DNA of 60,548 nt from Clostridiales bacterium. Lineage in GTDB: Bacteria > Bacillota > Clostridia > Lachnospirales > Lachnospiraceae. The position numbers were made by a program, and so were the translations under genes. Positions 9,415-40,727 of the stretch are shown here, in pieces (the first letter of the stretch is position 1; every line of letters starts with the position of its first letter). The stretch spans positions 1-60,548 of the forward strand of contig JAJQAA010000009.1 of NCBI GenBank assembly GCA_021204045.1, in the 5' to 3' direction. The notes below the pieces were generated by a model that was not told the DNA's origin, searched no databases, and saw only the letters and a program-made list of their open reading frames with translations.

Positions 9415-11196
9415 ATGAGAGAAATGGGGAAATGCAGGAAACTCTGGTGTAGACAGGTGTCGGAGCGGCCAGGGACGATGAGGCCAACGACGACACGGAG
9501 GAGAATGATGACATCGGCGGCAATATTGGCGGTAACGGCGCTGTCTGCCGCTTTTCTGGCAGGCTGCGGGGGCAAGGCGGAGACGCCGGCGGCGGTGGCG
9601 GCAGCCGGGGACGGGCCGCTGGGCGCGTACGAGGAAACGCTGGTCTGCGCCGCGGGCAGGAGCACGATCGCGAACCCGAAATTCCCTGAGGGCGACAGCT
9701 ATGAGGACAACGCCTACACGCGCTATGTGAAGGATGTGCTGAACGTGGAGATCCGGGACGAATTTGAGGCGAATGGGGCGGATTATGACCGCCAGGTCTC
9801 TCTGGCCATCGCTTCCGGGGAACTGCCGGATATCATGCAGATCGGTTCGAAGGATCTGCTGGATGAGCTTGTGGAAAATGACCTGGTGGCGGATCTGACC
9901 GAGGCATATGAGGAATACGCCAGCGATTACATAAAGGAGATTTACGATTCGTATGACGGCCGTTGTCTGGGACAGGCCAGCTATGACGGACGGCTCATGG
10001 CGATGCCGGGGACGAACCTGGACGGTGCGCCCTGTGTGACCTACATCCGCAGGGACTGGCTGGATAAGCTGGGTATCCGTATCGACGAAGATGGAGATAA
10101 GTGTATTTCCATCGAGGAGCTGGAGATGGTGGCCGCGGCGTTCCTGGAACAGGATCCGGGCGGAAGCGGCAAGCCGGTGGGTCTGGCTTTCGCGCCCTAC
10201 CTGACGGCGGACGATTACGGCGGCAGCGGCTACACGATGAATGCGGTGGCGTCCGCGTTCGGGGCGTTCCCCAAGGTCTGGCTGGCGGATGAGGACGGGG
10301 AGGTTTATTACAGCTCCACGTCGCCGCAGATGAAGGAAGCGCTGGGGAAGCTGGCGCAGTGGTTTCGGGATGGGATCCTGGATCCGCAGTTTGGCACGCG
10401 GACCTGGGATGATATCACAGCGCTGCTGACGAATGGCCAGCTGGGGATTGTGTTCGGCCCCTGGCACATTCCGGACTGGCTGCTCAACAATGTGCGAGCC
10501 ATGGACGACGAGGCGGATTTCGCGGCTTACGCGATCGCGGACGGGGAAGGACGTGTCAATGTGACCCACAGCAACGCGACGGGCGGTTACATGGTGGTGC
10601 GCAAGGGTTACTCCAACCCGGAGGTGCTGGTAAAGCTGGTCAATCTTTATTTTGACGAGATGGTAAACAGCACAGCGCTGGCCGAAGAGCATCCGGATGT
10701 GTACGACTACATCAACCAGGGCGTGGACGGCACGGCGCGGGTGATTTCCCTGGAGGTCAACGCCTACACCTCGCTGCTGGACGACTATGAGGATATCCGC
10801 GCCTGCGTGGCGGGAGAGATCGCGGAGGATGAGGTACACACCGCGGAATCAAGAAGTATCGTGGAGTCGGTGAAAAAATATGTGGAAAATCCGTCGGAGG
10901 CGGGAGTGACCGACTGGGCCAAAAATGTTTCCCGCATGGAGGGCGTCGCTCTGATTGACCGGATGATGGAGACGGGAAAATTTTGCTGGGAGACCCCGGT
11001 GTTTTACGGCGTCACGGAGACGATGCGCATGAAGAGCGCGAACCTTGGTACGCTCGAGGAAGAGATGTTTGTCGCGATAGTCACGGGTTCGAAAGACATC
11101 GGCGCGTTTGACGAGTTCGTGGCGACCTGGGAGGCGCAGGGCGGAAGCCAGATCCGCACTGAAGTACAGGAAGCGGTCTTCGGGGAGGAGGAATAG
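9415..11196 (+). CDS. CUT1 ABC transporter, LplA-like sugar-binding lipoprotein
   Basis: An extracytoplasmic solute-binding protein (family 1) of 593 residues that captures oligosaccharides for the two permeases downstream. A hydrophobic signal segment ends in lipobox LAGC near residue 45, so it is a membrane-anchored lipoprotein. Residues 224-235 (DEDGDKCISIEE) match an EF-hand calcium loop with D, D, D, I and E at the canonical positions, a feature known in this SBP subgroup. AGGAGAAGG just before ATG 9415 supports this start, but it gives an unusually long n-region; ATG 9478 or 9505 would give a more typical signal peptide. Position suggests isomaltooligosaccharide or dextran fragments as ligand (inference). 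Confidence 0.9.
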   Translation: MREMGKCRKLWCRQVSERPGTMRPTTTRRRMMTSAAILAVTALSAAFLAGCGGKAETPAAVAAAGDGPLGAYEETLVCAAGRSTIANPKFPEGDSYEDNAYTRYVKDVLNVEIRDEFEANGADYDRQVSLAIASGELPDIMQIGSKDLLDELVENDLVADLTEAYEEYASDYIKEIYDSYDGRCLGQASYDGRLMAMPGTNLDGAPCVTYIRRDWLDKLGIRIDEDGDKCISIEELEMVAAAFLEQDPGGSGKPVGLAFAPYLTADDYGGSGYTMNAVASAFGAFPKVWLADEDGEVYYSSTSPQMKEALGKLAQWFRDGILDPQFGTRTWDDITALLTNGQLGIVFGPWHIPDWLLNNVRAMDDEADFAAYAIADGEGRVNVTHSNATGGYMVVRKGYSNPEVLVKLVNLYFDEMVNSTALAEEHPDVYDYINQGVDGTARVISLEVNAYTSLLDDYEDIRACVAGEIAEDEVHTAESRSIVESVKKYVENPSEAGVTDWAKNVSRMEGVALIDRMMETGKFCWETPVFYGVTETMRMKSANLGTLEEEMFVAIVTGSKDIGAFDEFVATWEAQGGSQIRTEVQEAVFGEEE

Positions 11197-11200
11197 GGCG

Positions 11201-12130
11201 ATGGGCAAGAAAGTCGCGAAAATGGGCGGCGCCGCGCGGGCGCGCGGCGTCAGCTCACAGCGGATGTATCATGTGATGATGCTGCCCGGAATGCTGTTTG
11301 TGCTGATATTCTGCTACATCCCCATGTTTGGCGTTGTCATGGCGTTCCAGGATTATGTGCCGGCAAAAGGCATTCTCGGATCAAAATTTGTGGGTCTGAA
11401 AAACTTTTCCTATATGTTTTCCCTGCCGGACGTGAGCCGGATTTTTGTGAACACGCTGGTGATCGCGATCGGAAAGATCATCCTGGGGACGCTCATGGCG
11501 ATCGTGTTCGCGATCCTGCTCAATGAGATCCGCTGTAAATTATTTAAGAAAACCGTGCAGACGATCGTCTATCTGCCGCACTTCCTCTCCTGGGTGGTGC
11601 TGGCCGCGGTCGTGGTCAATATGGTGAACCTGGACGGGCCGCTGAACCAGCTGCTGGAGCTGGTCGGGCTGGGAAAGATCAATTTTCTCGGCAGCAACGT
11701 CTGGTTCCGCCCGATGATCATCGCCACGGACGTCTGGAAAGAATTTGGTTACAATTCCATCGTCTATCTCGCGGCGATCACGGCGATCGACCCGGGGCTG
11801 CACGAGGCGGCCGCGATGGACGGAGCTACCTGGTGGAAACGGGTGTGGCACGTCACGCTGCCGGGCATGCTGCCGATCATCCTGCTGATGGCGGCGATGA
11901 ACCTGACCAGTATTCTGAGCGCCGGATTTGACCAGATTTATAATCTGTACTCGCCGATGGTCTATCAGACGGGCGACGTGCTGGATACGTATGTGTACCG
12001 TATGGGTCTGATCAGCCGGCAGTACAGCTTTTCCACGGCAGTTGGGCTGCTGCGCTCGGTTGTGGGCATGATCCTGATGCTGACGGCGAATGGGCTGGCC
12101 GGGCGTTTCACGGACCGGAAAATATTCTAG
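11201..12130 (+). CDS. CUT1 ABC transporter permease, LplB/YteP-like
   Basis: An inner-membrane permease of 309 residues with six predicted membrane spans. The ABC-permease EAA loop is visible (HEAAAMDGATWWKRVWHVTL) and contacts the ATPase. The ATG at 11201 is used because GGAGGAG at 11184-11190, inside the end of the binding-protein gene, is correctly spaced; the frame is open further upstream but overlaps that gene. The gap to the upstream gene is only 4 bases, so the two are cotranscribed. No ATPase gene accompanies it; CUT1 systems in Firmicutes commonly use a shared MsmX-type ATPase encoded elsewhere. Confidence 0.93.
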   Translation: MGKKVAKMGGAARARGVSSQRMYHVMMLPGMLFVLIFCYIPMFGVVMAFQDYVPAKGILGSKFVGLKNFSYMFSLPDVSRIFVNTLVIAIGKIILGTLMAIVFAILLNEIRCKLFKKTVQTIVYLPHFLSWVVLAAVVVNMVNLDGPLNQLLELVGLGKINFLGSNVWFRPMIIATDVWKEFGYNSIVYLAAITAIDPGLHEAAAMDGATWWKRVWHVTLPGMLPIILLMAAMNLTSILSAGFDQIYNLYSPMVYQTGDVLDTYVYRMGLISRQYSFSTAVGLLRSVVGMILMLTANGLAGRFTDRKIF

Positions 12131-12145
12131 GGGGGAGGGGATTGT

Positions 12146-13039
12146 ATGGTTACCAGAAAAGGAATCCGAGCCAACCTGGGGCTGGCGGTGATCTACCTGA
12201 TTGTGTTTGCGCTGGGGCTGGTCTGTCTGCTTCCGCTGCTCAATATCCTTGCGCTCTCATTCAGCAGCAGCGAGGCGGCTGCGGCGAACCTGGTGGGCTT
12301 TGTGCCGGTGAAATTTACCACGGCGGCGTACCAGAAAATCCTTGAGGACCGGCAGTTCTGGCGTTCGTTTGGCATCTCCGTGCTGCGGGTGGTGCTGCAG
12401 CTGGTTCTGAATCTGATCCTGATCGTCCTGATGGCCTATCCGCTGTCAAAGTCGAAGCGGGAATTCCGTGGTCGGAATATTTATATGAATCTTCTGATCT
12501 TTGCGATGCTGTTTTCCGGAGGGATGATTCCTACCTACCTGGTGGTGAAAAACCTCCATCTGATCAATACCATCTGGGCGCTGGTGCTGCCAGGCGCGGT
12601 GCCGATTTTCAGCGTGATCATGGTGATGAATTTCTTTATGGGAATTCCCAAATCGCTGGAAGAGGCGGCGGTGATCGACGGTGCGACGCCCATCCAGGTG
12701 CTGACGCGGGTCTACATTCCCTGTTCCAAACCGGTGATCGCGACGATCACGCTGTTTTCCATCGTCGGGAGCTGGAATGACTTCTTCGGCGGCCTGATTT
12801 ATATGACAAAGGTCGCCAATTACCCGCTGCAAACCTATATCCAGTCGCTCAGCGTGAGCCTGGAGGACATCCTCAATTCGGGAGGAAGCCTGAGCAGCCT
12901 GGTGAACGCGATGGAGGTTTCCAGCCAGAATCTGAACGCGGCGAAGATCGTGGTTTCGGTCGTACCGCTGCTGCTGATTTACCCCATATTGCAGAAATAT
13001 CTGATCACCGGTATCGTGGTGGGAAGCGTGAAGGAATAA
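12146..13039 (+). CDS. CUT1 ABC transporter permease, LplC/YtcP-like
   Basis: The second permease subunit of the sugar importer, 297 residues with about six membrane spans. The EAA loop reads LEEAAVIDGATPIQVLTRVY. The protein ends in the GSVKE-type tail usual for this family. GGGGGAGGGG at 12131-12140 is the ribosome site, 15 bases after the previous stop. It forms a heterodimeric channel with the preceding permease and receives substrate from the lipoprotein encoded at 9415-11196. Confidence 0.93.
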   Translation: MVTRKGIRANLGLAVIYLIVFALGLVCLLPLLNILALSFSSSEAAAANLVGFVPVKFTTAAYQKILEDRQFWRSFGISVLRVVLQLVLNLILIVLMAYPLSKSKREFRGRNIYMNLLIFAMLFSGGMIPTYLVVKNLHLINTIWALVLPGAVPIFSVIMVMNFFMGIPKSLEEAAVIDGATPIQVLTRVYIPCSKPVIATITLFSIVGSWNDFFGGLIYMTKVANYPLQTYIQSLSVSLEDILNSGGSLSSLVNAMEVSSQNLNAAKIVVSVVPLLLIYPILQKYLITGIVVGSVKE

Positions 13040-13107
13040 ACAGGATGTCTGTGAATGAATGGAATACCGGCATTGTGTCAAAATCAGGGAATAAGGGGAG
13101 GTTACAC

Positions 13108-14628
13108 ATGAAAAAATGAAGCTTTGGTCCGCGGGTCGCAGTCGCGGCGCTGGTCTGCCTGTATCTGGCCGGGATGAACGTCTGGGCCGCGGGCAGCTGG
13201 ACGGAGAATGAGGACGGGAAGTTTTATTATACGGACGAGGCGGGAAACATCCGCCTGGGCGGATGGTTTTACGAGGAGAATGAGAAAGCGTGGTATTATC
13301 TTGATGAGAAGGGATACCGGATACAGGGGAAAAAGAGCATTGCGGGAGAAACCTACTTTTTCGGGGAAGACGGGCGGATGCTGACCGGCTGGGTGGAGTG
13401 CGAGCGGGATGAGGCCGCGGAAAGCTATGATAGTGGCATCGCAAACGACGATCTCTACTATTGCGGCGAGGATGGCCGGATGGTGGTCGGCTGGGTGTGG
13501 GCCTACGACCCGGAGGAAGCGGTTTACCGGCAGGACGAGATGTTTACGGAGATTCAGGACGACGACTTCGGCATGGATCATTATTATTTCAAGCAAAACG
13601 GGAAAATCTGCCGCAATGAGCGCAAGACGATCGACGGAAAGCGTTATATTTTCAAGGAAGACGGCACCTGCATGACCGGCTGGATCTATGATTACGGCGA
13701 GGGCAGCAGCGACCGTTTCCTGCATGTGGATACGGACAGCTCGGATTCGGACAAGAGCCTGTGCAGCGAAAATCCGCAGAATCTGATGTTCGCGGACGGG
13801 GATGGCGCACAGATCGTGAACGGCTGGATTGACGCGATTCCGCCGTGGGACGGGGAGGATGACGATGGCCGTAGCTTTTACGCGGATTCGTCCGGCTATG
13901 TGGTGACCGGCGACGGCGCGCGCGGGGACGGCACGAAGGTGGCCGCGCGCAGGACGCTGCAGACGATCGCGGACACGGGGACCTACACGCTGGAGGACTG
14001 GTCTTCCCATGTGAACATTACCCGGATTGACGGAAAATACTACTGCATGGAGGATTCCGGGACGCGGCTGGACGGCATTTTGCTGCTGACCGGCGGCGGG
14101 GACGATAAGGAATTCGCGGACGGCGTGTACGGTTTCGTGGACAACGCGGCGATGGCGACGGGCAATACCCCGGTCATCTATGAGGACGATGACGACGAGA
14201 GGGACGGCTACAGCTATTATTATTATTTCGCGGAAAAGAGCGACGACGAGTACAGTAAGGGTCAGGGAATCAGCGGTGTGGAGGACGGACGTCTGTACTA
14301 CTGCGGGCTGGCCGTGGCATCGCAGACGGACACCCTGGAAGTCGTCTATGTACCTGTGCTCGAAGAGAAGGATGACCAGGGACGCGGGACGGGATTTTTT
14401 CTCGTGGATGAGACCGGAAAGGTACAGAAAGGCTCGTACGAGGGCGCGCGCTATAAATCGAGCAACGGTAACATTTACCGCGTGACGAAGGAAGACGACG
14501 AGAACGATGATTACGGCTATATCATCGAATACTATGACGGGGAAAAGGACGATGATGACAGCAGGGTGTGGAAGAGCCTGACAGAAGCGGACTACGATTA
14601 CATCTGTTGGGACGCGCTTGAGGAATAA
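13108..14628 (+). pseudogene. Secreted glucan/cell-wall-binding repeat protein with TGA at codon 4
   Basis: Reading from ATG 13108, which has an excellent ribosome site (GGGGAGG, 13095-13101), the frame is M-K-K-stop(TGA 13117-13119) and then continues open for about 500 codons. The residues right after the stop complete a normal signal peptide, RVAVAALVCLYLAGMNVWA then AG. The mature part has many aromatic-rich repeats such as YYTDEAGNIRLGGW and YFFGEDGRMLTGW. These are of the CW_binding/glucan-binding type found in choline-binding proteins and in the glucan-binding domains of glucansucrases. The C-terminal half is very acidic. No other stop occurs. The first later ATG (13174) lacks a ribosome site and a signal peptide. 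A role in holding glucan at the cell surface fits the GH66 neighbour; that role is inferred. Confidence 0.75.
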
Positions 14629-14644: not shown

Positions 14645-17600
14645 ATGATGAGAAGATGGATTGCCAGGATACTGATCGTTGCGATGCTGGCCGCGGCTCT
14701 GCCGATGGAGACCTTTGCGGCGGTGGCGGAAGGCGTCGGCGGGGCAGTAGAGACGCTGCTGGAGACGGTGCCGCTCTCCGAAAGCGCTTACGCGCTCGCG
14801 TCGGGCAGCGACGGTGAGGAAAACTACGAAAACGCGAGCGGCAGCAACGCGTCGAAAACCGGCGCGTCGAAAAACAGCTCGGGCGACGGGAATGAGAACG
14901 GCGGGACGAAAAATGTGACGGCCTATGTCGTCGCGAGCGGCAGCAACATGTACGGCACGGCGACGTCCGCGAACGCGACGAGCGTCGCGACGGCCAGCAA
15001 TGTGGCGATGCTGTCGATGGTACGCTCGACGGTGGATATGAGCGAGTATCAGCTGGAGGCGGAGGATAGCACTTATGCTTCTTACAATAATACAAAGGCA
15101 AACAGCGATGGGGATCGGATGGAGCTGCAGCAGTACGGTTCCGTTACCTTTGATCTCTCAGCGGTGAATGGGTTTACGGCAGGCGATTTCCTGCTGCTTG
15201 CGAGTATGAACGGAACCTCTACAAAAATAGAGGTGAAGATAAACGACACCAGTATGGGAAGCTTTTCGAAAGAGAGTCTTGACTGGAGCTCCGGTGATTG
15301 CAGAGAATTTTATTATCATGGGATCCTCACTCTGGAGGCGACAGATACCCTGACGATTGCAGAAGCGGCAAATAACTACGCTCATCTGGATTATGTCAGA
15401 CTGGTGCGTGTTGACGACGAGACCATATACTGGATCGAGGCAGAGGATACCTCCGTAGCGACATTGGAGAACGGGGCGAATATACACAGTGATGGCGATC
15501 GCGTGGAACTGAACAGCGGAAACAGCGTCACGTTTAATCTGTCAAATGTATCGGATTTTGTTTCCGGAACGTATGCTCTTTATGCCGGGTTGAACGGAGC
15601 AAGAGAATATTTTGGTCTGTCCGTTGATGGAACATCAATCGGAACGATCACAGGGCCAGCCGAGGGCAAATGGGATACCGGTACCTGCCGTGACTGCACC
15701 TACACCGGCGATGACCTGCAGCTTAGCACGAGCAGCACGATTACTCTGGCAGATATAAATGGAAGCTGGGGCCATGTGGACTACATCCGTCTGGTGCGCA
15801 CCGGGGATCTCAAGCCCATGTTTGATGAGACCGACCCGGATACGGGCATACGGGTTGTCGCGGAGCAGGGCGTCCTCCCGGAAGGTACGTCGATCGTGGT
15901 TAAGAGCGTGGAAAGCTCCGACCAGAAGACGCTGCGGGAAGTCTTTGCAGAATACGATCAGAAAGCGTATTTTTACCGTTTTTATCTGGCAAACAGCACA
16001 GGAAGCGAAATTGATCTGAGCGAACTGGACGGAGAGGTCATCGCTTACTTCCCGATCCCGGACGGATATTCGTCAGATAGCGCCGTCTATTACGTGGAGG
16101 ACGCGGACGATACTCCGACCGTGGTCACCGGATATGAGGAGAGCAACAATTGCCTGAAAATCCAGCTGGACGCGTATGGCATTTACATGATCGTGGACGC
16201 GAACAGCTGGCAGCTGGAGGGCGAGGAGCATTATACCGGCGGTACGGCAAACGGCGGCACGGCTGCCGATCTGCAGCCGTCGGAATCGATCGATTTTACG
16301 ATTCCGGTCAGCAGCGGCTTTGCGTCGGGCGTTTACAATCTTTATGTCTGTGTATGCGGTTACCAGAGCTATAGCGTGTCGCTGGATGGCGAGGAGATCG
16401 CGGCGATCGACCGGGGAGACGGGACGGACTGGGGTGATTTTGAACTCTGCCTGCTTCCGGCAGCGCTGACGCTGCGTGCCAGCGACGTGATCACACTCAC
16501 GGCGAGCGATCATTACGGCTGGGTCGATTACATCCTTCTGGTCCCCTGTGAGGACTATGAGGAGGAATTTGATGAGGCGGGGGTCACGGTACTGGCGGAT
16601 GCGGGTGTCATTCCGACCGGAAGCGAGCTGACCGTTGAACTTGCGGATGAGACGACGATGGAGTGGGTTAAGGAACTGTTCGGGGTTACCGAAGCGAATG
16701 AGCTTCCGATGAGCTTCTGGAACATATCGCTGACCTCGGACGGCGTGGAGATCGATCCGGCGGGAACGGTCACGATTCGCCTGAAGGTTCCCGCGGGTTT
16801 TGAAACGGATGGGCTTGTGCTTTATCAGATCTCGTCGTCCGGCAGGAGATCGGTGATCTCGTACACGCTTTATTCCGCGAACGCGAGAAGGTCGTCTGCC
16901 TATTCGCTTCGGAGCAGATCGGTTTCGGCCAGCAGCTTGGGTGGTGAGTATTATGTAGAATTTGAAACCGAAACGCTGGGACTGTTTGGTCTGGTCTCAG
17001 GGATAGATGGCTATTATTATTACGGCTCTGATTATTACGCGAAGCTGACCGGCAGCGAGAACCAGTACGCGGATCTGCAGCCGCGGGAAGAAATGGAATT
17101 TTGTGTCGGCGACGCGTTTGGCTTCGCGGACGGCAATTATATCCTCACGTTGCGCTCGAGCGGCACGCGCACGAAGCTGATGGTGAAGGTCAATGGCGTC
17201 GTGGTCGGGATGCTGAGTCGGGAGAACACGGACTGGGAGGACATGAACGACGCGGTGCTGGATCTGGTGCTTTCGCTGACGCCGGAGGATGTGATCACGA
17301 TCTATGCGCCGGGTACGGAGGATCTCGGGCCTTACGGCTGGGTGGATTATGTGAAACTGACGGCGACCGATCAGGCGGCGGATACAGCCGCGGCGGTCAG
17401 GACGAAGATTACTTTGCAGGCGGAGGATTACTGGCCGGATGAGCTGGAGGAGGACGGCCAGGTGGCCAACCTGAACAACCCGGCGAAGATGCTGGAAATC
17501 CCGATTCTTGCGTCCTGCGGTTTCCCGGAGGAGGAGACGGAATATCTCTTTACAATGTACACGACAGGAACCATGCGTTCCTATGAGGTGTACGTCAACG

Positions 17601-17650
17601 GCGAGCTGGCGCTGACCGGCGATCTGGACGGTTCCGGCTATGAGATGTAG
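14645..17650 (+). CDS. Giant secreted CBM-repeat protein, N-terminal part up to in-frame TAG
   Basis: 1001 residues. ATG 14645 follows GGGGGAG at 14631-14637. A signal peptide spans about residues 1-30 (RRWIARILIVAMLAAALP). A low-complexity Ser/Asn/Gly stretch with ASGSN motifs reaches about residue 130. Then come beta-sandwich carbohydrate-binding-like modules ending in the W-x-D-Y-x-x-L signature: module 1 at 134-253, module 2 at 261-385, module 3 at 519-634, module 4 at 789-907 and the first part of module 5 from 921. Two different spacer domains (392-517 and 639-787; RVVAEQGVLPEG and TVLADAGVIPTG) lie between. The modules resemble CBM6/35-type folds, which occur in GH66 enzymes. Translation stops at TAG 17648-17650 in the middle of module 5, although the frame goes on. 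No sortase motif or membrane anchor is visible. Confidence 0.75.
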   Translation: MMRRWIARILIVAMLAAALPMETFAAVAEGVGGAVETLLETVPLSESAYALASGSDGEENYENASGSNASKTGASKNSSGDGNENGGTKNVTAYVVASGSNMYGTATSANATSVATASNVAMLSMVRSTVDMSEYQLEAEDSTYASYNNTKANSDGDRMELQQYGSVTFDLSAVNGFTAGDFLLLASMNGTSTKIEVKINDTSMGSFSKESLDWSSGDCREFYYHGILTLEATDTLTIAEAANNYAHLDYVRLVRVDDETIYWIEAEDTSVATLENGANIHSDGDRVELNSGNSVTFNLSNVSDFVSGTYALYAGLNGAREYFGLSVDGTSIGTITGPAEGKWDTGTCRDCTYTGDDLQLSTSSTITLADINGSWGHVDYIRLVRTGDLKPMFDETDPDTGIRVVAEQGVLPEGTSIVVKSVESSDQKTLREVFAEYDQKAYFYRFYLANSTGSEIDLSELDGEVIAYFPIPDGYSSDSAVYYVEDADDTPTVVTGYEESNNCLKIQLDAYGIYMIVDANSWQLEGEEHYTGGTANGGTAADLQPSESIDFTIPVSSGFASGVYNLYVCVCGYQSYSVSLDGEEIAAIDRGDGTDWGDFELCLLPAALTLRASDVITLTASDHYGWVDYILLVPCEDYEEEFDEAGVTVLADAGVIPTGSELTVELADETTMEWVKELFGVTEANELPMSFWNISLTSDGVEIDPAGTVTIRLKVPAGFETDGLVLYQISSSGRRSVISYTLYSANARRSSAYSLRSRSVSASSLGGEYYVEFETETLGLFGLVSGIDGYYYYGSDYYAKLTGSENQYADLQPREEMEFCVGDAFGFADGNYILTLRSSGTRTKLMVKVNGVVVGMLSRENTDWEDMNDAVLDLVLSLTPEDVITIYAPGTEDLGPYGWVDYVKLTATDQAADTAAAVRTKITLQAEDYWPDELEEDGQVANLNNPAKMLEIPILASCGFPEEETEYLFTMYTTGTMRSYEVYVNGELALTGDLDGSGYEM

Positions 17651-19003
17651 TATATGGTCAAGGTGGTGGGGAGCGAGACGCTCGCGCTGAAGGCGGGCGA
17701 TATCCTGGAAATCGCTTTTCCGGAGCAGGACAGCGACAATTACGGAAACTGGGTCGATTATATTATCCTCAACAGTCGCCGCAAGGCTTCCGACGGCAGC
17801 CTGGAGAAACGGACCGGCGGCCGCGCGCTGACAGAAACCATCTATGTAAACAGCGCGGAGCCTACGCTCTCGGTGGAAAATGGGGCGCTGATCTACCAGG
17901 CGGAAGCTTACTACAAGGCGCAGAATGACAATCCGGCGGCAGACCTGCAGCCGGGCGAGCAGATTCCGATCCCGGTCTCGGAGCACTGGAAATTCGTGGA
18001 CGGAAGCTACCGCCTGACGATCCGCTCGTGCGGAAACCGCGAACTGTTCAACATTAAGGTAAACGGAGTGAAGGTTGCCAGCGTCAGCCGCAAGGAGAGC
18101 AATTACGGCATGGATCAGATGAGCGACGACGGCGGCGCAATACTTGATCTGAAAGCGGGCGATATCCTGATTGTGGAAGGACAGACCGGAGGAAAATACG
18201 GCTGGGTGGACTATGTGAGTCTGACGCCGGTGACGCGTTCCGAGCCTTCTGAGAGCGGGAAACGATACTCCTGGGAAGCAGAAAATTATTATCCGAAGCA
18301 GACGGACACCCCGACGGCGGATCTGCAGCCGGGCGAGACGATCGATATTCCGCTGGGAGATAACGAGGAATTTGTGGACGGGACGTATTATATTCAGGCA
18401 AGCAGCAACGGAAACCGCACGATGCTCAGTGTGAAAGTAAACGGCGCGCTCGTCGGATCAATCACCCGCAATGAGACCAATTTCACGATGGACGGCATGA
18501 CCCTGGATGTGCTGCAGCGGCCGGTGGCGCTGACCAGGCAGGATGTGATCAGCCTCTGCGCGCCGGGCACGGAGGAAGGTCCCTGGGGCTGGGTGGACCA
18601 GCTGGTGCTGGTACCGGCGGATGAGGCAAATCCGACGCCAAAGGAAGAGTACCGTTATCCGGCGGCGGCCTACGGGACCGCGAGCACTTTCCTGGCGGCC
18701 GCGGATCTGCAGCCGGAGGAATCGCTGGTGATCCCGCTCAGTGACCAGGCGGAGTTTATCGAGGGTGATTACCGCGTGTTTGTGATTTCCAACGGCACGC
18801 GCGAGGAGTTCGCGATCAGCTTGAACGGCGGCTATGTGGGCGCGATCCGCAGGAGCGCGTCGGACTATGGGGACAACGGAATGTCCGCGGATCAGCTTCC
18901 GGATATTCTTCATCTGACGCCGGCCGATGTCCTCACGGTCACCGGCCAGGCCGGAGATCACTATGGCTGGGTAAGCGCGCTGCTGCTGGAACGTGTGGAA
19001 TAA
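17651..19003 (+). pseudogene. C-terminal part of the giant CBM-repeat protein after the TAG
   Basis: The same reading frame as the preceding entry, directly after the TAG, open for 450 codons to TAA at 19001-19003. It begins in the second half of CBM-like module 5 (KAGDILEIAF, then GNWVDYIIL) and contains complete modules 6, 7 and 8, each with the internal ADLQP motif and a GWV-D signature at the end. Module 5 makes sense only if both parts are joined. The ATG at 17654 has no ribosome-binding site, so independent translation is unlikely. With the stop read through or corrected (CAG to TAG is one transition) the whole protein would be 1452 residues with eight modules. The GH66 gene starts 13 bases later. 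Confidence 0.7.
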
Positions 19004-19015
19004 AGGAGGCGGAAA

Positions 19016-20863
19016 ATGAAAAGAAAACATATGCTGGCGCTCTGTTTGGCAGCGGCCCTGCTCGCGGGCGGGGCCGCCGGGGGCGCTCAGACCGCCCGGG
19101 CGGAGGAGGTTTTGCAGACGGAGACGTTAAAGACGGTCACACTGAGTACGGTAGAAAAACAGGGACGTTATATCCGTGACCTGACGACGGATCGCAGCAT
19201 GTACGATCCGGGAGCGACGGTTAACGCGGTGGCGGAGCTTGCCGCGCCGTCCGGCGCGGCCTGGGCGGGCGAGATTGTGATGGTTCTGCGCTATCTGGAT
19301 GAGCCGGTATGGGAAGACCGCGCGTCGGTTTCCAGTGCTGCCGGGACGTTTGCGTTTGCGGTGACTGTGCCGGAGCGTGATTTTAAGGGCTATTCGCTGG
19401 AGGTTTATCTCTATCTGGACGACGCGCTGGCCGACTACGCGATGACGGGCGTGGACGTTTCTTCCGACTGGAATGTGTTCCCGCGCTACGGCTATGTGAC
19501 GAAGATGAACGCCTCGCTGGAGACGGTCCGCGAGACGCTGGAACGGCTGAAGGATCATCATATCAACGGACTGTTCTATTATGACGTATTTGATACGCAG
19601 GAGAAGCCGCTTGCGGGTACGGTGGAGGATCCTGCGGACAGCTGGTACACGCTCAACCGTTCCCTGGCGAAGAAGCAGACGCTTCTGGATACCATCAATA
19701 TCGGCCATGAGCTGAACATAAAATCGTTTTTCTATAATCTGATTTTCGGCGCCTACGACAATTACGAGGAGGCGGGAGTCAGCGCCGAGTGGGGAATGTA
19801 CAGCGACCAGATGCATCAGAATCAGGACGTCCACGATATTTCCGGTATCGGCTGGGAGACGGAGAAATTCTGGCTGATGAATCCGGCGAACACATTGTGG
19901 CAGGATTATTATATCAACGCGCACAAGGATCTGTTTTCGGTATATCCGTACGACGGCATCCAAGTGGATTCCCTGGGCTACCGGGGCGACCGCTATGATT
20001 ATGAGGGCAACGCGATCAAGCTGGACGACGCCTATGTGCCGATGCTCGAACGGCTGACGCAGGAGCTGGATAAAAAGGTGATTTTCAACCCGGTTTCTTC
20101 CTACGGACTGGAGCAGGAGCTGCGCTCCGTAGATTATGATGTCGTCTACGTGGAGGTGTGGCCGGGCGATACGCCGGATTTCGCCTCGCTCAAGCAGAAA
20201 GCGGATGAAATTTACAGCGGCACAGGCGGAAAGAAAGGGACGGTCTTCGGGGCCTATATGAACTATGACGCGCCGAAATCGGAGGATTTCAATACGCCGT
20301 CGATCAATTACGTCAATTCCGTGCTGATGGCCGCCGGAGCGGCGCATCTGGAGCTTGGCGACACGGGAATGCTCTCGAGCGAGTATTATCCCGGCAACTC
20401 GATGCGCATCACCAGCGCGTTGGCGCAGGATCTGCGGGACGAGTATTCGTTCCAGGTCGCCTATGAAAATCTGCTGCGGGGCACGAATCTGGTGGAGGTG
20501 CGGGATGAGACCACGCTGGGCGGCAAATCGACGTCATCTGATTTCCAGCCGGGCAATGTCACCTCGTTCACCAAAATCAAGTACCAGGACGGAGAACCGG
20601 CGCGGGAGATTCTGCATCTGCTGAATTTTGACGGCGCTTCGCACGACAGCTGGGTGGACAAGGGGCTCGCCCAGACCGCGCCGAAGATTAAGAAGGAGAT
20701 GACGGTGACGCACAGCTGCACGGTCGCGCCGGAAAAAATCTGGGTCGCTTCGCCGGATTACCGGGGCGGGATCATGCAGGAGGTGGAATTCACGGTGAAA
20801 AACGGAACCGTGACATTTACGCTGCCGTATCTGGAGTATTATACGATGGTTGTAATGGAATGA
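19016..20863 (+). CDS. GH66 dextranase or cycloisomaltooligosaccharide glucanotransferase
   Basis: A secreted enzyme of 615 residues that cleaves (or cyclises) alpha-1,6-glucan. The signal peptide is MKRKHMLALCLAAALLAGG followed by an Ala-rich cleavage region ending near ARA. An N-terminal immunoglobulin-like domain covers about 45-150, and the TIM barrel starts at about 155 (PRYGYVTKMN). The GH66 catalytic motifs are DGIQVDSLGYRG with nucleophile D318 and VVYVEVWPGD with acid/base E380. A beta-domain closes the C-terminus. It lacks the CBM35 insert typical of cyclising enzymes, so dextranase is more likely, and carbohydrate binding may be supplied by the CBM-repeat protein next door. AAAGGAGG at 19002-19009 gives a firm start. 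It is the last gene of the operon. Confidence 0.88.
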   Translation: MKRKHMLALCLAAALLAGGAAGGAQTARAEEVLQTETLKTVTLSTVEKQGRYIRDLTTDRSMYDPGATVNAVAELAAPSGAAWAGEIVMVLRYLDEPVWEDRASVSSAAGTFAFAVTVPERDFKGYSLEVYLYLDDALADYAMTGVDVSSDWNVFPRYGYVTKMNASLETVRETLERLKDHHINGLFYYDVFDTQEKPLAGTVEDPADSWYTLNRSLAKKQTLLDTINIGHELNIKSFFYNLIFGAYDNYEEAGVSAEWGMYSDQMHQNQDVHDISGIGWETEKFWLMNPANTLWQDYYINAHKDLFSVYPYDGIQVDSLGYRGDRYDYEGNAIKLDDAYVPMLERLTQELDKKVIFNPVSSYGLEQELRSVDYDVVYVEVWPGDTPDFASLKQKADEIYSGTGGKKGTVFGAYMNYDAPKSEDFNTPSINYVNSVLMAAGAAHLELGDTGMLSSEYYPGNSMRITSALAQDLRDEYSFQVAYENLLRGTNLVEVRDETTLGGKSTSSDFQPGNVTSFTKIKYQDGEPAREILHLLNFDGASHDSWVDKGLAQTAPKIKKEMTVTHSCTVAPEKIWVASPDYRGGIMQEVEFTVKNGTVTFTLPYLEYYTMVVME

Positions 20864-35683: not shown

Positions 35684-35719
35684 AAGGTTTAGGTTTTACG
35701 GAACTATTTAAAAAATAAA

Positions 35720-35985
35720 AAAGCGATGAACGTGTCCAGTAGCGTCCTGTTTTCCGTCAGAGAGAGAGGGTCATCGGCTGTAAGCCCTTTTCCGTTCAGG
35801 CAGGCGCGCGAAATTCGCACGGGAGCTTCGCGGCTGAAAACCTGGCGCAGAGGCGCGGGCAGGCTGCGGCGTGGCTGCGCGTTATGCAGAGTGAGTGCCC
35901 GCTGATGATTTGGCGGGAAGCTGGGTGGTACCGCGGTGATGATCGTCCCATGGCAATCGTTGGATTGTTGTGGGGCGTATTTTTA
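35720..35985 (+). promoter_or_regulatory. T-box riboswitch (tRNA-Phe sensing) with terminator
   Basis: The signature GGGTGGTACCGCGG is at 35923-35936. Stem I contains the AGTA-type bulge (CCAGTAGCG), AGAGAG and the distal loop GGCTGTAAGCC, after which UUC codons occur at 35790-35792 and 35795-35797; either would be a Phe specifier. The terminator stem is CGTCCCA (35944-35950) with TGGGGCG (35971-35977), an inner CAATC/GATTG pair and a T-rich tail. Uncharged tRNA-Phe would stabilise the antiterminator and allow pheST transcription. Together with the promoter and following hairpin this fills the gene-free stretch 35602-36072. Confidence 0.9.
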
Positions 35986-40607: not shown

Positions 40608-40619
40608 CAGGGAAACCAA

Positions 40620-40706
40620 GCAGCAGGGGAGCTCGTAGTGACGGGCTGAGAGGAAGCAGACAGCTTCGACCCTTATACCTGATGCGGATAATGCCGCCGG
40701 AGGAAG
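40620..40706 (+). promoter_or_regulatory. TPP riboswitch (THI box)
   Basis: Canonical aptamer elements in order: GGGGAGCTC, GGGCTGAGAGGAAG, CTTCGACCCTTATACCTGA, GCGGATAATGCC and the closing AGGAAG. Binding of thiamine pyrophosphate would favour the terminator at 40728-40766 and shut off the operon from thiW onward. Edges of the P1 stem are approximate. Confidence 0.93.
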
Positions 40707-40727
40707 TCAGATTGACAGGGATTTTTT

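Follow-up and report, generated by a model that had tools for sequence, protein, structure and literature searches.

The locus described here raises the question of why an apparently complete gene for a secreted protein should carry a stop codon within its signal peptide. The gene lies on the plus strand of the window, i.e. the whole stretch of 60,548 nucleotides that was analysed, which is also an entire contig (C32) of a draft genome of 2,750,061 bases in 67 contigs, rated 99.08% complete. Direct reading of positions 13094-13119 gives AGGGGAGG-TTACAC-ATG AAA AAA TGA: a ribosome-binding site (13094..13101) placed 6 bases upstream of an ATG start codon (13108..13110), two lysine codons, and an in-frame TGA (13117..13119) as codon 4, which falls in the signal peptide's n-region. 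This confirms the arrangement of ribosome site, ATG and Lys-Lys-stop described in the sequence-only reading, as well as its claim that the gene is otherwise intact. Past the TGA the same frame runs for 502 codons (13120..14628) with no further stop until the terminal TAA at 14626-14628. It begins with a hydrophobic leader, recognized by eye as the remainder of the signal peptide, and continues into a choline-binding-repeat protein. As a random frame of the same base composition would stay open over 502 codons with a chance of about 4e-9, and as three relatives match the continuation almost end to end (from residue 18, 20 or 46 to residue 502, at 55-61% identity), the frame after the TGA is a real gene.

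The protein matches the choline-binding repeat PF19127 with 37.9 bits against a curated cut-off of 27 (E 1.6e-9), which places it in this repeat family. The interrupted gene is the fourth in an operon-like row of plus-strand genes. It is preceded by an extracellular solute-binding protein (9415..11196; PF01547) and two ABC permeases (11108-12130, with a true start probably further in, and 12146-13039; both PF00528), all three with intact frames and conserved synteny. It is followed by a large repeat surface protein (14645..19003), both pieces of which returned zero matches in a Pfam search, and by an intact dextranase-type glycoside hydrolase of the GH66 family (19016..20863; PF13199), the sole GH66 match in the genome. 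The name "glucan-binding protein" given to the interrupted gene by the earlier reading is putative, its basis being one PF19127 match and a GH66 gene in the same row, and the GH66 neighbor would be consistent with a role in the capture of a dextran-like glucan. The claim of a second such stop in the adjacent surface-protein gene stands as regards the in-frame stop, seen by direct reading in the large repeat protein and absent from relatives, but its codon is a TAG (17648..17650) and not a second TGA. Elsewhere in the window, a T-box leader (35717-35953) and a TPP riboswitch (40615-40723) score above their gathering thresholds.

Comparison with orthologues had been proposed earlier as a check, and it was made here with one genome of the source species. 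The genus search returned 23 further genomes, five of which contain the gene with E-values of at most 1e-20 (G011, which matches strain D16-56, and G023, G002, G009 and G007), and in all five the frame is open across the site, with an ATG followed by a leader (judged by eye), as is expected of relatives of a nonsense-interrupted gene. The TGA is shared by none of them, which argues against a conserved or programmed read-through. Their leaders are too diverged to reveal which codon formerly occupied the TGA position. Gene order is identical in the four relatives that are readable as far as GH66, the contig of G007 ending earlier. In these four the large repeat protein is one continuous frame of 1432 to 1750 codons. 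The alignments to D16-56, G023 and G002 reach directly up to the place of the TAG and resume from it, whereas G009 has an open frame without direct alignment at that place. Outside the genus, G042 returned one 31% match that is open and has a visible leader, and one 30% match containing one TAA; both were excluded from the counts of relatives.

Could translation still begin beyond the stop? The first ATG, GTG or TTG past the TGA, and the sole one within the first 60 codons, is the ATG at 13174, located 18 codons in. No ribosome site was seen by eye before it, and a start there would yield a protein devoid of the signal peptide; hence a downstream start that retains the leader was rejected. A further ATG, at 13116, shares bases with the TGA (ATGA; 13116-13211) and was also rejected, as it opens only 31 codons in a different frame and does not lead into the gene. 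The stop borders a run of six A, and the sequence-only reading had pointed to this run when it offered a sequence error as one explanation. Altering the run by one or two bases would put the ATG into a frame of 31 codons that ends at 13209 or one of 20 codons that ends at 13175. As both altered frames close this early, an error in the length of the run is rejected, as is phase variation by means of it, and a changed run length is not applicable as a refutation of the stop. What remains is a base substitution, whether of the organism's DNA or of the consensus, so that the proposal of a sequence error survives only in the form of a substituted base.

We then considered the possibility that the TGA is decoded. 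UGA might be read as selenocysteine, or TGA might be reassigned throughout the genome, and the open frame after the TGA, though nothing else, would fit either. However, a mechanical gene prediction over 431 kb gave 324 genes, 128 of which end in TGA, and release factor RF2 (prfB) is found above cut-off without internal stops; both argue against a reassigned code. SelB and tRNA-Sec gave matches below cut-off only, in a draft assembly in which absence is unproven; among 14 control genomes the same searches exceeded the cut-off in 2 for SelB and in 5 for tRNA-Sec. Further, codon 4 of a leader would be an implausible site for selenocysteine, and the relatives are without the codon. Taken together, we regard selenocysteine or reassignment as having a negligible probability.

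A different proposal is that the stop is real and kept, and that occasional decoding of TGA would give a little of the full protein, so as to dim expression. Conservation of the frame past the stop is in its favor, as is a survey (PMC7918605) that reports bacterial genes whose in-frame stops are kept at one position across related genomes, with dN/dS under 1, discusses TGA as leaky, and gives 6% read-through of TGA in a Bacillus subtilis reporter. That survey, however, counts only stops common to two or more genomes, whereas here the stop occurs in none of the five relatives. The stop in the neighboring gene is a TAG, for which leaky decoding of TGA would be of no use, and no anticodon for a stop codon was found among the 39 tRNAs called by ARAGORN at 40 Rfam hits (one weak hit of 30 bits was left uncalled). 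This last negative is weak, since the tRNA set is incomplete: neither a Cys nor an Ile tRNA is among the 39, despite the completeness rating of 99%. The draft seems to be without some tRNA-bearing stretches, perhaps those linked to rRNA. A scan of 30 bases of the window against viral_contigs returned zero matches, and in the excerpts available of the literature on read-through with signal peptides and UGA, no bacterial case was noticed. Nothing marks low-level leak-through of TGA as functional here, and we consider it improbable. Its extension to both stops, with the TGA and the TAG each leaky, two surface proteins held at trace levels while the enzyme and importer stay on, and the whole being particular to this species, is less probable still. 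The expression switch by recoding that had been suggested from the sequence thus finds no backing in the relatives, in the codon used by the neighbor, in the selenocysteine machinery, or in the incomplete tRNA set.

Relative-rate counts were made with G009 as the outgroup, and are given here as changes on the side of the window and on the side of the relative. For the part after the ATG at 13174 they are 25/34 (D16-56), 30/33 (G023) and 36/35 (G002). In the same order, they are 33/38, 32/39 and 32/34 for the second part of the large repeat protein, and 36/31, 40/35 and 41/33 for GH66. Differences in the interrupted gene amount to 29-32% at the first codon position, 24-26% at the second and 55-60% at the third. 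The rate counts show no acceleration of the frame after the TGA, which means that selection acted on it until recently and that the stop, if real, is very young. Contrary to such a young age, an excess of change on the window side is seen in the first part of the large repeat protein (72/54, 77/50 and 104/57, from a poor alignment in which identity to the outgroup is just 20-25%) and, against G002, in the intact binding-protein gene (62/36, with 53/39 against G023). Counts against D16-56 for the binding protein and permease 2 were left unused, as they are distorted by the grouping of D16-56 with the outgroup in these two genes, and the row of G009 for permease 1 was also unused because a wrong frame had been taken.

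The fresh nonsense mutation put forward earlier is thus supported by a private stop, an intact conserved frame and the lack of acceleration. We estimate at roughly an even chance that the TGA is a private, very young, loss-of-function substitution that is real in the sequenced population. It would have struck the leader of a secreted choline-binding-repeat protein in a GH66 operon. Ribosomes starting at 13108 would release after two lysines, and a start at the ATG at 13174 would at most give a protein that lacks the signal peptide and is retained in the cell. On account of these two outcomes the surface protein would probably not be made, save for a trace from leak-through of the TGA. The large repeat protein, with its TAG, would then have been hit independently, as the second gene to be struck in an operon partly out of use. 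If the break is real, the strain has probably lost surface capture of glucan while keeping the enzyme and the importer.

The principal rival to a real nonsense substitution is an error of the consensus or assembly, whereby the contig holds a wrong base or a minor allele of a mixed population, and most cells carry an intact gene. Elsewhere in the genome, places where one stop separates two coding stretches and no new ribosome site follows were sought in 60 stretches plus the window. This sample of 1,225,345 bases (about 45% of the genome, with 1.7 kb counted twice) was chosen for convenience, many stretches coming from contigs already met, and is not random; an earlier scan over 431 kb had used looser filters. 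The scan for internal stops listed 11 places, namely five accepted split genes, one gene boundary (L039, rejected as a split gene) and five others, and a rerun with newly trained codon scores again gave 11 places, one of them different. A scan for stops near the 5' end gave 12 places, including 13117 and, once more, the place in gpsA.

The accepted genes are the large repeat protein, gpsA, mgsA, a double-cubane reductase and an IS21 transposase. The first was accepted on the basis of its relatives, and the other four because their halves match consecutive parts of one model. Their stops are a TAG in gpsA (L040 16670-16672, minus strand, G000:C7), a TAG in mgsA (L142 16549-16551, minus strand), a TGA in the reductase gene (L132 10941-10943, plus strand) and a TAG in the transposase gene (L125 16013-16015, plus strand), the first half of the last scoring slightly better with another transposon model. 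With the TGA at 13117, the six stops comprise four TAG and two TGA. In seven relatives searched (of 23 in the genus), gpsA is open in every case. The piece of mgsA before the stop was found in the same seven genomes at 12 places, of which 11 are free of stops. The remaining one, which is the closest of these copies (91% identical; L145, G020:C18:259285-259506), has a TGA inside the match.

Three relatives served as controls for the internal-stop scan. In G018 nothing was listed over 400 kb, while G011 and G020 gave two and three places, respectively, over 200 kb each. By eye, three of these five places are ordinary gene boundaries and two are ambiguous, leaving no clear split gene in 800 kb. 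The difference of five split genes against none has a chance of about 0.08, a figure that rests on the by-eye reading of the controls.

Within the sampled 1.23 Mb, a single in-frame stop thus cuts no fewer than four genes besides the two of the operon. The broken single-copy gpsA, open in all seven relatives, hints at consensus errors, and single stops scattered over unrelated genes are a warning about the assembly. In a published study (PMC11017572), many internal-stop pseudogenes in bacterial assemblies are ascribed to assembly errors, with low-quality reads mainly adding internal stops. On the other side, the A-run cannot be the cause of an error here, and by completeness and contig number the assembly looks good, its incomplete tRNA set aside. 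The two stops in one operon fit decay, if weakly: with at least four other genes cut in the sampled 45%, two of the six stops would fall within 4.5 kb with a chance of about 0.11. Hence the pair is no strong sign of local decay and is less telling than it first appeared. On balance an error is a serious prospect, which we put somewhat short of even.

The gene resembles nonsense-interrupted genes and young pseudogenes, including those made by assembly, as treated in PMC11017572, in having one premature stop, a conserved frame and open relatives; nothing was found that sets it apart from them, though two stops lie in one operon. With the conserved in-frame stops for which read-through is suggested (PMC7918605), it shares a conserved-looking frame after the stop, but sharing of the stop, the key feature there, is seen in none of the five relatives. 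As compared with other choline-binding-repeat surface proteins, it has the repeat match above cut-off, a leader, and the same neighbors as in the relatives, here GH66 and an ABC importer, but its start is interrupted in the source genome only. Seen against the relatives, the usage of stops, the tRNAs and the scan of the same genome, what had been suspected to be a decoding switch comes down to either a common kind of young break or an error, and such comparisons can place a striking in-frame stop quickly.

The relatives also differ among themselves within the operon. Between D16-56 and G009 (loci L022 and L025), identity is 95% for permease 2 and 84% for the binding protein but drops to 52% for GH66, and the GH66 of D16-56 is 83% like that of G023. 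This pattern suggests a mosaic operon, parts of which may have been exchanged among the relatives.
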